A DNA stretch of 34,243 nt, taken from contig JAODNJ010000457.1 in assembly GCA_025465155.1 (NCBI GenBank), forward strand, positions 1 through 34,243, read 5' to 3'. The DNA comes from Frankiales bacterium (GTDB taxonomy: Bacteria > Actinomycetota > Actinomycetes > Mycobacteriales > Geodermatophilaceae). The notes under the pieces were generated by a model. The model was not told the DNA's origin. It saw only the letters and a program-made list of their open reading frames with translations, and did no database searches. Positions within the stretch are counted from its first letter, which is position 1. Every line of letters begins with the position of its first letter. Of this stretch, positions 4,777-9,740 are shown in pieces. The position numbers and the translations under genes are program-made.

Positions 4777-5508
4777 GTGAGCGGCCGGGTGCTGCTGCTG
4801 GGAGGCACCGGGGAGGCCCGGAGGCTTGCCGAGGCGCTGGTGGCCGGCGGTGTCGACGTCGTGTCCTCGCTCGCGGGCCGGGTGGCCCAGCCGGTGCTGC
4901 CGCCCGGTGAGGTGCGGATCGGTGGCTTCGGCGGCGCCGAGGGGCTCGCCGCCTGGCTGCGCGCCAACCCGGTCCGTGGCGTGGTCGACGCCACCCATCC
5001 GTTCGCGGCCACGATGACCCGGAACGCGGCGTCCGCGACCGCGGCGACCGGGACGCCGCTGGTGCGGCTGCATCGGCCGGGGTGGACCGCGCTGCCGGGG
5101 GACGACTGGCGGTGGGTCGACTCCCTGGAGGAGGCGGCCACGGCGGTCGGACGCTTCGCGCACGTGTTCGTCACCACGGGCCGGCTGGGCCTCTACGCCT
5201 TCGCCGGGCTGCCCATGGAGGTCGTGCTCCGCACCGTGGAGCCGCCCGAGCCGCCGCTGCCCGCGCGCACGACCGTGGTTCTCGGGCGGGGACCCTTCAC
5301 GGTCGGGTCAGAGCTCGCCCTCATGCGGGAGCACGCCGTCGACGTCGTCGTCACCAAGGACAGCGGCGGCGGCATGACGGCGGCCAAGCTGACCGCGGCC
5401 CGGGAGCTCGGCATCCCGGTCGTCCTCGTCCGCCGGCCGCCCCTGCCGGTCGGGGTGCCGGTGGTGGAGTCGGTGGAGGCGGCACGGGCCTGGGTGCTGA
5501 ACCGGTGA
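4777..5508 (+). CDS. cobK: Precorrin-6A reductase CobK
   Basis: CobK reduces precorrin-6A to precorrin-6Y with NADPH. The 243-residue protein opens with the dinucleotide-binding VLLLGGTGEARRLAEAL. It contains VVDATHPFAATMTRNA, the conserved CobK/CbiJ signature, and VVTKDSGGGMTAAKL near residues 189-203, also family-typical. The start is GTG 4777 (SGRVLLL). The stop codon shares bases with the GTG of a 28-codon ORF beginning MRELATERGD at 5505, which appears to be the amputated start of a HAD phosphatase gene. The ancestral operon was probably cobK-HAD. Confidence 0.95.
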   Translation: MSGRVLLLGGTGEARRLAEALVAGGVDVVSSLAGRVAQPVLPPGEVRIGGFGGAEGLAAWLRANPVRGVVDATHPFAATMTRNAASATAATGTPLVRLHRPGWTALPGDDWRWVDSLEEAATAVGRFAHVFVTTGRLGLYAFAGLPMEVVLRTVEPPEPPLPARTTVVLGRGPFTVGSELALMREHAVDVVVTKDSGGGMTAAKLTAARELGIPVVLVRRPPLPVGVPVVESVEAARAWVLNR

Positions 5509-5591
5509 GGGAGCTCGCGACCGAACGCGGCGACCGGAGCCGGCTCGTCCGGTTCGACCTCGACGGCACCCGCGGTCACGGCAGTGGTTGA
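5505..5591 (+). pseudogene. Amputated 5' end of a HAD phosphatase gene
   Basis: This 28-codon frame starts at a GTG overlapping the cobK stop. It ends RLVRFDLDGT, then diverges into RGHGSG and a stop. RLV-x-FDLDGT is HAD motif I and matches the N-terminus of the HAD gene starting at 7782 (RRLVLFDLDGT). At DNA level GTTCGACCTCGACGGCACCC is identical in both places. I read this as the original first 22 codons of that HAD gene, cut off by insertion of the element between. The alternative is chance, since FDLDGT codons are constrained in GC-rich DNA, but the coupling to cobK and the correct in-frame position argue against it. Confidence 0.6.
5547..5571 (+). repeat. Left direct repeat, candidate att site
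   Basis: A 25-bp segment that recurs at 7803-7827 with one mismatch (position 5 is G here and T there); the last 20 bases are identical. It lies in the motif I codons of the HAD gene fragment. Same orientation as the right copy, about 2.26 kb away. Confidence 0.55.
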
Positions 5592-5801
5592 CGAACGGCG
5601 AACGCGCAGGTCAGTGGCTAGATAGCGCGTTGCCTGCGAGCGGTGATATCCAGCTGTTTCGAGCTGTGATGTGTACCCCCGTTCTGTACCCAAGATCATC
5701 GTGTGCTGCGCCGCAGCCGGCTCTGACCGGCGCGTGAGGGTCGCGGATGCCGCCCAGGCGCATGAGGCCCCGCCATGGTGTCCGGTGCCAGGATCGGGCG
5801 C

Positions 5802-6770
5802 ATGCGTGCAGTGATCGTGGCGGCAGCCGGCGGCCCGGACGTCCTCGACGTGTCCGACCGGGAGACTCCGACGCCGGGGGCGCACGACGTCCTGGTGGAC
5901 GTGGTGGCCGCCGGGGTGAACTTCATGGACATCTACGTGCGGGAGGGCCACCCGCCCTACGCCCGCCAGACGCCGTTCGTGCTCGGCTCGGAGGGCGCCG
6001 GCACGGTGGCCGCGGTGGGTGCCGAGGTCGCCGGGGTCTCCGTGGGTGACACCGTCGCCTGGACCGGCGTGCCCGGCAGCTACGCCGAGCAGGTGGTCAT
6101 CCCGGCCGACCGGGCGGTGCCGGTGCCCGTAGGCGTCGACCCCATGACGGCGGCGGCGGTGATGCTGCAGGGCTGCACGGCCCACTATCTGGCGTGCAGC
6201 ACGCACCCGATCTCCGCGGACGACCTCGCCGTCGTGCACGCCGCCGCTGGTGGCGTCGGCCTGCTGCTCACCCAGATCGTGCGCCTCCGCGGCGGCAACG
6301 TCGTCGCGACCACCTCCGGCGGCGAGAAGGCAGACCTGGCCAGGCAGGCCGGCGCGCAGCACGTCGCGGGATACGACGACTTCGTCGACGTCGTCCGCGA
6401 GGTCAGCGGCGGCCAGGGCGCGTCGGTGGTCTACGACGGGATCGGGCAGGCCACCTTCGACGCCGGGCTGGCGGCGCTGCGCCGTCGGGGGCTGATGGTG
6501 GTCTACGGCGCCGCGAGCGGGCCGGTTCCGCCTGTCGAGATCCAACGCCTCCAGACCGGCGGCTCCCTCTACCTCACCCGGCCCACCCTGGTCGACTACA
6601 TCGTCACCCGGGAAGAGCTGCTGTCCCGCACCGACGAGATCTTCGACTGGATCAGTTCCGGACTGCTGTCGGTGCACATCGGAGGGACCTACCCGCTGGC
6701 CGACGCCGCCCGCGCCCACGAGGACCTCGCGAAACGCCGCACCACCGGCAAGATGCTTCTCGTGCCATAG
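5802..6770 (+). CDS. Quinone oxidoreductase (Qor), zinc-independent MDR family
   Basis: The 322-residue protein is a medium-chain dehydrogenase/reductase of the NADPH:quinone reductase type: probable one-electron reduction of quinones or reduction of reactive enones, cytosolic. The N-terminal GroES-like domain carries VVAAGVNFMDIYVREG and PFVLGSEGAGTVAAVG. The nucleotide-binding domain carries HAAAGGVGLLLTQ (about 146-158). Zinc ligands of alcohol dehydrogenases are absent. ATG 5802 (MRAVIV) fits the family better than the in-frame start at 5775. CAGGAT lies 7 nt before it, possibly a weak leaderless -10. It lies inside the decayed element, and nothing ties it to cobalamin; it converges on the lipoprotein gene. 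Confidence 0.88.
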   Translation: MRAVIVAAAGGPDVLDVSDRETPTPGAHDVLVDVVAAGVNFMDIYVREGHPPYARQTPFVLGSEGAGTVAAVGAEVAGVSVGDTVAWTGVPGSYAEQVVIPADRAVPVPVGVDPMTAAAVMLQGCTAHYLACSTHPISADDLAVVHAAAGGVGLLLTQIVRLRGGNVVATTSGGEKADLARQAGAQHVAGYDDFVDVVREVSGGQGASVVYDGIGQATFDAGLAALRRRGLMVVYGAASGPVPPVEIQRLQTGGSLYLTRPTLVDYIVTREELLSRTDEIFDWISSGLLSVHIGGTYPLADAARAHEDLAKRRTTGKMLLVP

Positions 6771-6868
6771 CCCGAACGGCACGAGCGACCTATCCGCCAC
6801 CCCGCTGACCGCCACCAGGACAGAAGGCGAGACACAGTCCGGCGAATGAGACGTGTGGCCTGGATCCG

Positions 6869-7252
6869 TCAGCCGCCCACGGGCGAACGGACTCGCAGGC
6901 GGTACACGCTCAACGTCTGGGCACCAGCAGGCGCGGGACAGCCCGCCGACGGCTTGCCTGCGACGCCGTAGCTCTGCAGCGCCTGCACGGACTGGCCGTC
7001 TGAAGCGATCGGGTGCCCGTCCAGCTGCAGGTCGACGGGCTGGTGCGTGCGGTCGACCTGGGTGCCGTCGACCCACACCGTCTGCACCACGCCGGCGTGC
7101 TCAGCGACCCACGAGCAGCCGCTCCGCGCATCGATGTGCAGGGTGCCCACAACTACTCGTCGGACCGGGTGCACGTTGGTCGGCGTCGAGCACGCGGCGG
7201 ACAAGGCGAGCAGCCCCGCTGCCACCGTCCACGCCGACCACTGCAGCCGCAC
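6869..7252 (-). CDS. Small putative lipoprotein, unknown function
   Basis: The 127-residue product read from GTG 7252 opens with Arg2, a hydrophobic stretch (TVAAGLLALSA), and a lipobox LSAAC with Cys21 as the acylation site, so it is probably anchored to the outer face of the membrane. The mature part has two further cysteines (in RSGCSWV and SAGCPAP), which may form a disulfide, and segments such as VQTVWVDGTQVDRTHQPVDLQLDGHPI that look beta-rich. I do not recognise a family. The open frame extends upstream to 7465, but that part is not protein-like and the signal peptide would then be internal. No clear SD precedes the GTG. It lies inside the decayed element, in opposite orientation to qor and the integrase remnant. 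Confidence 0.6.
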   Translation of the reverse strand: MRLQWSAWTVAAGLLALSAACSTPTNVHPVRRVVVGTLHIDARSGCSWVAEHAGVVQTVWVDGTQVDRTHQPVDLQLDGHPIASDGQSVQALQSYGVAGKPSAGCPAPAGAQTLSVYRLRVRSPVGG

Positions 7253-7526
7253 GTCGGGATAACGAGAGCCACCCTGCGCCGATGCGCCCCAGCAGGTCGA
7301 GGCCCGGTACGGCGTGGGCCTCGGGCGCTGGAGAGTGTCCCTTCCGGCTGGGGGGGCATCGGGCAAGCCTCGCCCGTTGTCCTCCTCAACCGAGCGGTGG
7401 ACTGGGGGGCACGTGGTGACGTCGGGACTTGTGCGGTTTCCGTCGGTCCCGAGCTCGTCGCACACCGATGCGAGAATCTGGCCGACCGAGCGTCAGCGTC
7501 GACGTGTTGATCCCGAGGGAGCTGCG
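7253..7526. other. Intergenic region of the element without a convincing gene
   Basis: Divergent spacer between the lipoprotein gene and the integrase remnant. Reading frames cross it on both strands, but their translations are not family-like. Composition is mixed, with less GC-rich patches near 7430-7510. GAGGGAG at 7515-7521 is a plausible SD for the ATG at 7527. I see nothing else. Confidence 0.4.
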
Positions 7527-7781
7527 ATGGCCAGCCTGGAGAAGCGCGCGCGCACGGACAGCTGCGCTGGGGCGCTGATCTCCCGCGGCGTCTCCGTCGT
7601 CCCCGTCTCCCGCTGGCGGGGGCACTCCAGCCGCGAGATCACCTACCGCGTCTACGCCCATCTGCGCGAGGACGACGAGACCGCCGGGCGCGCCGCCGTG
7701 GCCGCAACCCTGGGCAGAATCGTTCCCGATGTGTACCCGGTGTGTACCCCGGGAGCTGCTGACGCGGAAAACCCCAGGTAG
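7527..7781 (+). pseudogene. Tyrosine integrase remnant with internal deletion
   Basis: ATG 7527, with GAGGGAG upstream, starts an 84-residue frame. MASLEKRAR resembles the opening of actinobacterial phage-type integrases. It is followed at once by the extreme C-terminal part, ALISRGVSVVPVSRWRGHSS then ITYRVYAHL. Only the distal catalytic residues remain: His33 (RGHSS) and the presumed nucleophile Tyr43 (VYAHL). The box I Arg, the Lys and the HxxR box II are missing, as are the arm- and core-binding domains, about 300 residues of a normal integrase. Start and end are still in one frame, so a precise in-frame deletion is likely. The product cannot recombine DNA. The stop abuts the HAD gene's ATG with no gap. 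Confidence 0.8.
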
Positions 7782-8435
7782 ATGGCGCAAGGAAGACGCT
7801 TGGTCCTGTTCGACCTCGACGGCACCCTGGTCGACTCGGCGCCGGGGATCTGGGCATCGGTCCGCGCCGCGGCCTGCGAGCTCGGTCTGCCGCCTCCGAC
7901 CCCGGACCAGCTGCGGGCGATGGTCGGCCCTCCCCTCCAGGACGGCTTCGCCGTCGTGATGGGGCTGGCGGGTGGGGACGTCGACCGTGCGGTGGCGGCG
8001 TACCGGGCCCATTACGCGGCGGGGGCGATGCTCGACGTCACCGTCTACGCCGGGATCCCGGAACTGCTGGACGCGCTGGGGCGCGACGGCGCGACGCTCG
8101 CGGTGGCGACGAGCAAGCCCGAGCCCTTCGCCGTCCGCGTACTCGAGCACACCGGGCTGCTGTCGGCGTTCGCCTCCGTGCACGGGGCGACGTTCGACGG
8201 AACGGTGCGGCACAAGGAGCAGGTGGTGGCTGCCGCTCTCGCCGCGCACCCCGACGGCCGGGATGCGGTGCTCATCGGCGACCGGGCGCATGACGTGCTG
8301 GGGGCCGCGGCGCACGGCCTGCCGTGCATCGGCGCCGGCTGGGGGCCGGCTCGGGACGGCGAGCTCGAGGAGGCCGGCGCGGCGGTGCTGGCGGCGACGC
8401 CCGCGGACGTCCTCGCGGCGCTCGCCCGGCTCTGA
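7782..8435 (+). CDS. HAD-superfamily phosphatase, phosphoglycolate-phosphatase-like
   Basis: A 217-residue cytosolic HAD hydrolase of the Gph/PGP subfamily, acting on a small phosphate ester; substrate not determinable. Motif I is LFDLDGTLVDS (nucleophile Asp11, acid Asp13). A helical cap follows (to about residue 80), then AVATSKPEP (motif II Ser/Thr), RHKEQV (motif III Lys), and LIGDRAHDVLGA (motif IV acids). The ATG directly follows the integrase stop, with only AGGTAG as a weak SD inside the integrase tail. The N-terminus MAQGR seems to be supplied by the inserted element, the native start being left at 5505 beside cobK. The protein is full length and motif-complete, so it should be functional. 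It converges on the glycosyltransferase gene 12 bp downstream. Confidence 0.9.
   Translation: MAQGRRLVLFDLDGTLVDSAPGIWASVRAAACELGLPPPTPDQLRAMVGPPLQDGFAVVMGLAGGDVDRAVAAYRAHYAAGAMLDVTVYAGIPELLDALGRDGATLAVATSKPEPFAVRVLEHTGLLSAFASVHGATFDGTVRHKEQVVAAALAAHPDGRDAVLIGDRAHDVLGAAAHGLPCIGAGWGPARDGELEEAGAAVLAATPADVLAALARL
7803..7827 (+). repeat. Right direct repeat, candidate att site
   Basis: Matches 5547-5571 in 24 of 25 positions, with the final 20 bases identical. It covers HAD codons VLFDLDGT and lies 22 bp downstream of the integrase remnant. Confidence 0.55.
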
Positions 8436-8447
8436 ATCCGCCGCCGG

Positions 8448-9740
8448 TCAGCCGTGGAGCAGTGCCTCGGCCCGGTCGGCCGCCCTCGGCCGGGTCCGCG
8501 CCTCGACGGCGAGCCGGTCGGCGAACTCGAGAGCGGCGCGGGCGTACGCCGGATCCCGGAGGACCGTGTTCACGGCCGCGGCGATCCGGTCGGGCGGCGC
8601 GTCCCGATCCACCCGGACGCCCGCGCCGAGCCGCAGGACCCGCACGGTGTTGTCCTTCTGGTCGCGGCCCATCGGCACGCAGATCAGCGGGATCCCCGCT
8701 GCCAGGGCCTTGAGGGTGATGCCGTGACCGGCGTGCGTGACCACCGCCGCGGCCTCGGCCAGCACGGCGCGGTGGGGCGCGGCCGACACGACGCGGACGT
8801 TGGGCGGTGCCGGGACGTCGGTGGGGTCCACCGCCCGGCCGGTGGTGAGCACGCCCCTCACCGGCAGCCGGCCCAGCGCGGCCGCGGCCCGCCGCAGGAG
8901 GTCCGTCTGTCGCTGGAAGATGGAACTGCCCGCCACCAGCACGAGCGGCGCGTCTCCGGGGGGTCGCCACGAGCCGGGATCCGCGCCGCCGGCCGCCCAG
9001 TCCGGATCGTCGAGTTGGGGACCGACGAAGCGGACGTTCGGCGGGATGTGCGGGGAGGAGAAGTCGAACGACGGGCTGGTGAGCACGAGCACCTCGGCGC
9101 AGCGGTCCAGGAGTTCGAACAGGTCGCCGATCGGGGGAAGGTCGTACGCGGCGATGGTCCCGTTCAACGGAGGCAGGAAGATCGCCGACGCGCGCCTGGC
9201 GGCGGCGACGGCGAGCGTGTCCCTCGCCCGCCCGACGCGTCCCGTGCCTTGGCGCCAGCCCGTTCCCATGACGGGCAGGCCGCGGGTCGGGCGCATGTAG
9301 ACATTGGCCATCAGCGCGGCCGTCGGCAGGCCCGTCGCCGTGGCTCCGATCAGGATGCCCGGGACGGCGGCCTCGGCCAGGACGGCGTCGGCCCCGACCT
9401 CGCGCGCGGCACCGATCACGTCCGCGGCGAACCCCGGGGCGCCGCCGCAGATCAGCCGGTCGCGCGCGACCCGGAACGCGCGCACCGGATTACCGCCCTC
9501 GATCGCGGCGATCAACGTCGTCTGCTCGGCGAGGGAGGCGAAGTGTGGGCCGGCCCGCCAGGAGGTGAAGCCGCAGCCTGCTGCGCGCGCCGACGGTGCG
9601 ACGGTCGGGTCGGCGAGGACCGTCACGGCGTGACCGCGCCGCACCAGCTCTGCGGCCAACCCGAGGGCGGGCGGGACGGTCCCGCCGCCGTCGATGATCG
9701 CAAGCAGGAACCGGCCTCCGCGGGCGCGCTGTCCGGTCAC
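8448..9740 (-). CDS. GT1-family (UGT/macrolide-type) glycosyltransferase
   Basis: A 430-residue GT-B fold glycosyltransferase that would move a sugar from an NDP-sugar to a small hydrophobic acceptor. The N-domain opens RFLLAIIDGGGTVPPALGLAAELVRRGHAVTVL, the usual acceptor-side Rossmann start with a 'P.l.la..L..rGH.V' pattern. The C-domain has PLVLVAGSSIFQ and VVTHAGHGITLKALAAGIPLICVPMGRDQKDN near 340-370, the donor-binding signature with the conserved His-Gly and D/E-Q residues. No signal peptide or membrane segment. The GTG start gives VTGQRARGGRF. It is divergent from the glutamine-synthetase-like gene across 279 bp. Acceptor and sugar are unknown, and no deoxysugar genes lie nearby. Confidence 0.87.
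   Translation of the reverse strand: MTGQRARGGRFLLAIIDGGGTVPPALGLAAELVRRGHAVTVLADPTVAPSARAAGCGFTSWRAGPHFASLAEQTTLIAAIEGGNPVRAFRVARDRLICGGAPGFAADVIGAAREVGADAVLAEAAVPGILIGATATGLPTAALMANVYMRPTRGLPVMGTGWRQGTGRVGRARDTLAVAAARRASAIFLPPLNGTIAAYDLPPIGDLFELLDRCAEVLVLTSPSFDFSSPHIPPNVRFVGPQLDDPDWAAGGADPGSWRPPGDAPLVLVAGSSIFQRQTDLLRRAAAALGRLPVRGVLTTGRAVDPTDVPAPPNVRVVSAAPHRAVLAEAAAVVTHAGHGITLKALAAGIPLICVPMGRDQKDNTVRVLRLGAGVRVDRDAPPDRIAAAVNTVLRDPAYARAALEFADRLAVEARTRPRAADRAEALLHG

Follow-up and report, generated by a model that had tools for sequence, protein, structure and literature searches.

Why does a phosphatase gene of the HAD family appear to begin twice, once directly behind cobK and once again further along, in the genome of a Geodermatophilaceae bacterium? 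The question arises in a 34,243-nucleotide stretch of Frankiales bacterium DNA, which was analysed as a whole and is referred to here as the window. Comparison with related genomes indicates that the DNA between the two beginnings, an island at 5572–7807 lying between two copies of a core repeat, is very probably the decayed remnant of a tyrosine-integrase integrative element. The element would have inserted into the motif I codons (FDLDGT) of the phosphatase gene, here called HAD1, and supplied the gene with a new start. The locus is made up of the following features (E, expectation value).

4777–5508, + strand: cobK (precorrin-6x reductase), bordering the insertion on its left side; Pfam CbiJ/CobK, E 1.7e-73.
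5505–5571, + strand: orphaned native 5′ end of HAD1, ending in the motif I codons; recognised from its sequence and translation, from uninterrupted overlapping pairs in relatives and from the same fragment in a related locus, L031.
5547–5571, + strand: left core copy (attL core), 24/25 identical to 7803–7827; all 25 bases are present in L031.
5572–5703, + strand: left arm of the element, aligning with left ends in L031 and in the genomes G007, G002 and G104.
5670–5691, + strand: doubled arm motif TGTGTACCC / TCTGTACCC, a probable arm site at which the integrase would bind; 5/5 left ends have the first half-site at +117, counted from the core.
7527–7781, + strand: integrase remnant, its first ~9 residues fused to its last ~70, with the stop directly before the HAD1 start; recognised by comparison with full-length integrases.
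7730–7749, + strand: doubled arm motif, TGTGTACCC twice, within the integrase 3′ end (codons for DVYPVC).
7782–8435, + strand: HAD1 phosphatase gene, with a putatively element-supplied start (codons to about motif I) and the rest native; Pfam HAD_2, E 5.7e-24; 70–81% identical to the other 57 family matches.
7803–7827, + strand: right core copy (attR core), recognised by its repeat match to the left core.

The initial annotation had described the cobK stop as overlapping the GTG of a short frame, and the stop codon at 5506–5508 indeed overlaps a GTG at 5505, from which the frame reads MRELATERGDRSRLVRFDLDGT. This frame is 28 codons long, as had been stated, but instead of ending at DGT it continues for six codons (RGHGSG) into unrelated DNA. 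Similarly, the full HAD gene was correctly placed at 7782, but its product opens with MAQGRRLVLFDLDGT and not with RRLVLFDLDGT. The repeats described between the two beginnings are present, comprising an identical 20-mer at 5552–5571 and 7808–7827 inside a 25-bp match with one mismatch (5547–5571 versus 7803–7827), and the RLV residues are encoded by different codons in the left and right copies, CGGCTCGTC and CGCTTGGTC, again as described. At up to 3 mismatches the 20-mer has only these two matches in 34,243 bases, with a mean of 0.03 in shuffled sequences. The 17-mer TTCGACCTCGACGGCAC is present in 37 of 58 HAD1 loci and is the usual motif I coding in these genomes. With the core being ordinary motif I sequence here, the repeat alone would be weak evidence, and the weight of the case is carried by the arms, the position of the fragment and the relatives.

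The claim that a tyrosine integrase remnant abuts the right core copy was borne out, with residues 5–73 of the last 73 sharing 67% identity (E 1.2e-26) with a full-length integrase; a Pfam search of the 155-residue open frame of the remnant returned no match. A large internal deletion has removed most of the catalytic domain, including regions that presumably hold the catalytic Arg and the HxxR motif. Because these regions are lost, the window copy is probably fixed in place and, judging from what is left of the gene, probably immobile by itself.

The left ends of five elements (window, L031, G007, G002 and G104) align from the core through 150 bp. Counting from the start of TTCGAC, the first half-site of the doubled left-arm TGTGTACCC stands at +117 in all five and the second at +128 in four, the window having it at +130; the right-arm half-sites stand at −79/−68 or −81/−70 in 3/3. 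A profile built from left ends detected the right arms of G007 (E 1.4e-4) and of a G002 remnant (E 0.0024), neither of which was part of the profile. It did not detect the right arms of the window and G104 at E 0.01, and reversed sequence gave nothing. In the 1.80 Mb of fetched DNA, largely HAD and cobK neighbourhoods, 27 of 27 matches to the doubled motif were these arms; as some loci overlap, they amount to 8 distinct places. In the left core copies, the codon after GAC is CTC or ATG, as in the host gene, which is either HAD1 or a paralogous gene, HAD2; because the left copies match the host gene at that codon, the left junction lies at about this point. Beyond it, G002 and G007 share GGGACACGGCGTGTC, while G104, L031 and the window differ.

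An independent insertion in HAD1 was found in G002, together with its empty site. The native 5′ fragment of the split gene ends in the core and is followed by a left arm homologous to that of the window, with 1078 bp to the second core. In the sister genomes G003 and G008, the G002 flanks are contiguous at 87–94% identity and HAD1 is intact; the flank alignments overlap there by 26–27 bp, which constitutes the empty site. Direct core repeats that fuse to an empty site are thereby seen for the G002 insertion, and the repeats themselves are seen in the window. The G002 left arm was detected using the G007 left end as the query. A protein search for an integrase at HAD1 loci outside the window yielded none, with one match at E 0.049 (G107).

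The context of HAD1 was read across 112 genomes of the family, in 58 of which the gene was found at E 1e-40 or better; the 58 loci read are 57 besides the window plus that of G018, in which the gene is truncated. cobK is present in the fetched flank of 46 of the 58, motif I begins less than 100 nt from the cobK end in 22, and cbiD-cobK is conserved to the left of HAD1. In the named records L039, L040 and L041, the two genes overlap by 4 bases through a shared stop and start. A candidate insertion in G018 (L022, 1501–1581) was rejected; an internal deletion left the first codons and the tail of HAD1, which is a separate gene loss.

Intact integrases next to HAD motif I codons, which the initial annotation had proposed to look for, were found at HAD2 in G007 and G104. 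HAD2 is family-wide, with a match in 107/112 genomes; its motif I reads VLFDMDGT and its best NCBIfam match, below the cut-off, is the beta-phosphoglucomutase family. The full-length integrases nearest to the window remnant are those of G104 (374 residues) and G007 (369 residues). The two share 80% identity, both have a Pfam Phage_integrase match (E 4.9e-25 and 2.9e-23), and their genes end 0 and 17 nt, respectively, before the HAD2 ATG. The window remnant is 67–69% identical to these HAD2-site integrases over 59–69 C-terminal residues. G007 carries both core copies, 5.67 kb apart, together with the left arm. In G104, the left contig holds metH followed by a HAD2 5′ fragment and the left arm, and the right contig holds HAD2, the integrase gene, an HTH_17 excisionase-like gene and a TrwC relaxase; the two contigs presumably bound one element. 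The TrwC and HTH_17 result pertains to G104; in the G007 element, the scan covered the integrase and two AraC-type regulators. HAD2 is in some relatives preceded by metH, which is present in the fetched flank of 36 of the 91 HAD2 loci read. Starts that restore the frame and appear to be supplied by the element were read at 7782 in the window and at HAD2 in G007 and G104.

Traces of the integrase gene also gather at HAD motif I. DNA of the G007 integrase 3′ end, with the best 6 candidates per genome scored, had eight matches at E <1e-20 in the 112 family genomes, the place of the query included, and each of the eight immediately precedes a HAD motif I; seven belong to HAD2 loci and the remaining one is the HAD1 locus of the window. 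In G002, G003, G006, G008 and G025, the remnants at HAD2 keep the ATG in an element-like context, and weak matches in G004 and G011 also sit at HAD2. An integrase-end profile run on the 91 HAD2 and 58 HAD1 loci matched seven HAD2 loci at E <1e-15, five of which had been used in building it. Weaker matches at HAD2 in G030, G096, G004, G045, G011 and G044 (E 5e-6 to 0.002) may partly reflect HAD2 codons in the profile. The same profile matched the G002 left arm (E 0.0019) and gave 10 more matches at E 0.012 to 0.89; on reversed sequences there were none at E up to 1. In the ~20 kb upstream of HAD2 in nine genomes, no left core copy was found save one 6-mismatch match in G004. We lean towards a broader model in which this integrase group took the HAD motif I (FDxDGT) codons as its landing site and moves between paralogous phosphatase genes, each visit swapping the start. 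Several species would have lost the element while HAD2 kept the borrowed start.

Within the island, two further open frames complete the inventory.

5802–6770, + strand: zinc-type NADPH:quinone reductase gene, an intact open frame and probable cargo; Pfam and NCBIfam matches; present in the L031 island, 92% amino acid identity.
6869–7465, − strand: open frame of 198 residues; no Pfam match at E 0.01.

No transfer or replication genes were seen in the window island. The same element occurs in L031, which shares 958 bp with the window at 97% identity, through the left arm; the orphan fragment and the left arm are the same in both, and L031 also has all 25 bp of the core and the quinone reductase gene. 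The region of this gene (window 5775–6789, L031 1379–2393) holds the only gene seen in common between the two islands and is preceded in L031 by ~354 bp of extra DNA. L031 is filed under a 7.1-Mb bin labelled Streptosporangiaceae despite its 97% identity to the window; the bin is probably contaminated.

Several observations weigh against reading the island as an inserted element. The case is known from sequence alone, no excision, circular form or recombination having been observed. With the genus of the window taken as Geodermatophilus, a tight cobK-HAD1 pair occurs in 0 of its 16 HAD1 loci, of which 12 have cobK in the fetched flank at 418–1100 nt, and a search for an island-free genome of the window's own species found none. 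The uninterrupted pair that the initial annotation anticipated was thus encountered, but in other genera (the 22 loci above), from which it must be read because the genus of the window has none; for the window, no other part of the argument is as weak. A DNA query with the window left arm gave only chance-like scores in the other 111 genomes; because it found only itself above that level, left-arm homology rests on the G007 query and the alignment. The G002 HAD1 insert keeps no integrase, which leaves its left end as the sole link with the group. The right half of the L031 island lies beyond its contig, and a search of the L031 bin for the right side of the window gave short matches only. In G007, the gene left of attL is not metH, which lies ~30 kb upstream (L142–L143, G007:C3) with the DNA between unexplained, and the ends of the G104 element are on separate contigs without a detected overlap. 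Weaker matches to the integrase-end DNA (E 4e-7 to 1e-3) occur in 61 further genomes, mostly short and elsewhere.

Given that the arms are so prominent in the argument, it matters that they are found beside another kind of target. Across the 112 family genomes, the doubled arm motif, allowing one mismatch, had 15 matches versus 2 for a reversed control pattern. Seven are arms of the HAD elements, four lie at tRNA-Arg sequence (G000, G002) and four elsewhere (G034, G060, G069, G074), the last with no HAD motif I within 250 nt; the search yielded no third HAD target. In G000, the genome of the window, doubled TGTGTACCC stands beside tRNA-Arg(CCG) at G000:C7:6960–6979 (L354) and G000:C609:17611–17630 (L363), which are probably the two ends of another element, and G002 has a similar pair (L362, L364). 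ARAGORN calls a tRNA in two of these four places. The integrase of the tRNA-Arg element is 33–36% identical to the HAD-site group. The same arm motif beside tRNA-Arg with such a distant integrase indicates that arm type and target can vary separately.

Could the locus have arisen in some other way? A partial duplication of the HAD 5′ end, or a chance likeness to motif I, with unrelated DNA between and no site-specific insertion, would draw on the core being normal motif I coding, which makes a short repeat cheap. We find this scarcely credible, since five loci share the left arm at one and the same spacing from the core, the right core copy is adjoined by an integrase gene in the window, G007 and G104, and two sisters show the empty site of the G002 insertion. 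It is also very improbable that the HAD gene from 7782 is cargo of the element, the native HAD1 having been lost except for its first codons. A glycosyltransferase-like frame downstream (8448–9740) is found beside HAD1 in 1 of the 37 loci read with ~1.5 kb downstream, which leaves right-flank synteny thin and could speak for cargo; against this, the HAD1 body and downstream DNA of G002, to the right of the insert, are collinear with G003 for 1117 bp and with G008 for 805 bp at 93–94% identity, and the HAD2 gene next to the integrases of G007 and G104 belongs to the whole family.

A further proposal is compatible with insertion at motif I and concerns the breadth of the group. The HAD1 and HAD2 insertions might represent two element lineages sharing arms, with no single group choosing motif I. 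The same doubled arms serve the tRNA-Arg(CCG) element in the same genomes, so they do not define the target, and the HAD1-site integrase is known only as a remnant of ~80 residues. We nevertheless judge this proposal unlikely, given that the remnant is 67–69% identical to the HAD2-site integrases versus 35% over 63 residues to the tRNA-Arg one, and that HAD1 and HAD2 are joined to the element at the same codons of the motif. Site-specific insertion in the 5′ end of HAD1 with an element-supplied start, as originally suggested, is supported by the arms, the G002 empty site and the G007 and G104 integrases.

Taken together, a model for the insertion of this element can be proposed. The integrase would bind the arm motifs and recombine the attP core with motif I at the start of the phosphatase gene, strand exchange and its catalysis presumably falling inside the core near the GAC-NNN codons. 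As the sequence shows, the native 5′ fragment remains behind cobK, ending in the core and followed by the left arm of the element, and the integrase gene ends directly before a new ATG that restores an open frame through motif I. The attP would carry a recoded 5′ end so that the target gene could keep working, HAD1 now probably being transcribed and translated downstream of the integrase gene, to which it is adjacent. With most of the window integrase gene lost, the new start would be fixed unless another integrase acts in trans.

Wider searches suggest how far this integrase extends. Three matches at E 1e-60 or better were found in 397 genomes of the order (best 4 candidates per genome scored) and one in 394 genomes of the class (best 5 per genome). 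Apart from G007 and G104 this leaves two, at 38% and 36% identity, and the 4-kb locus of neither contains an FDxDGT-type motif. In 153 phage and 68 plasmid records all integrase matches were below 60% identity, and a protein search of viral contigs found none. The arm motif occurs in 11 stretches of viral contigs. In one of these, L369, doubled TGTGTACCC (8755–8774) lies just upstream of the viral contig's integrase gene, whose product is 27% identical to the G007 integrase; the arm motif thus reaches into phages. A VFDAFG 108 nt from the L369 arm motif was rejected as a target, as it is antisense of the phage's own integrase gene, and the other ten stretches have no FDxDGT-type motif within 250 nt.

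Here the integrase would be targeting DNA that encodes a conserved catalytic motif, in two paralogues, and the element would bring a spare host-gene 5′ end with it; the start annotated for genes of this kind may have come from a mobile element. The relaxase element, the two-ended element, the remnants and the empty site form a natural series for studying how integrases change target and keep their arm sites, a series that also takes in the tRNA-Arg element, which shares the arm motif and lies in the genome of the window. Many integrases settle in tRNA genes. These are also the usual sites of actinomycete integrative and conjugative elements (AICEs), which rely on a translocase to transfer DNA in double-stranded form. 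The initial annotation had called a protein-gene 5′ end an uncommon attachment site, a fair remark that nonetheless has precedents in prfC and dusA. Among the matches listed in a literature search, no paper was found by its title or abstract start on HAD genes as integrase targets, most subscription journals being outside reach, and none in the same literature on integrative and conjugative elements (ICEs) of Geodermatophilus. A HAD gene in PMC10383233 was rejected as a target, being cargo there according to the available part of that paper.

The closest parallels, as far as the available portions of the cited papers go, are the dusA/dusB islands, whose integrase family enters a protein gene at its 5′ end and substitutes an end of its own, leaving the native one at the far side, and which have short semiconserved core repeats and two related targets (PMC4482086, PMC8409611). 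The HAD elements likewise replace the gene 5′ end and use two related targets, but these are the motif I codons of HAD phosphatases, in other hosts. The dusA-specific integrase family is defined by targeting dusA or dusB, and the targets here are HAD1 and HAD2. The portions of PMC4482086 and PMC8409611 available to us make no mention of doubled arms like the TGTGTACCC arms of the HAD elements. ICE SXT and related islands in prfC also replace the 5′ end of a protein gene (PMC8409611), but with one target gene and in a different element and bacteria. Helper-embedded phage-inducible chromosomal islands (PICIs), which are Gram-negative satellites, have a doubled co-oriented arm motif, TGTATTGC, at ~81 bp to one side of the attP centre and 132 bp to the other, and one integrase clade with repeated tropism for a gene class, namely prophage late genes at 14 sites (PMC10111431). 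The half-sites of the HAD elements similarly begin ~68–81 and 117–130 from the TTCGAC start, whereas targets, arm motif and hosts differ. AICEs, likewise integrative elements of actinobacteria, combine an integrase with an excisionase-type gene (PMC3218068), as the G104 element does, but the latter has a TrwC-type relaxase. Islands that replace the 5′ end of a gene are thus known, and what is new is that a single integrase group uses codons of the catalytic motif in two HAD paralogues.

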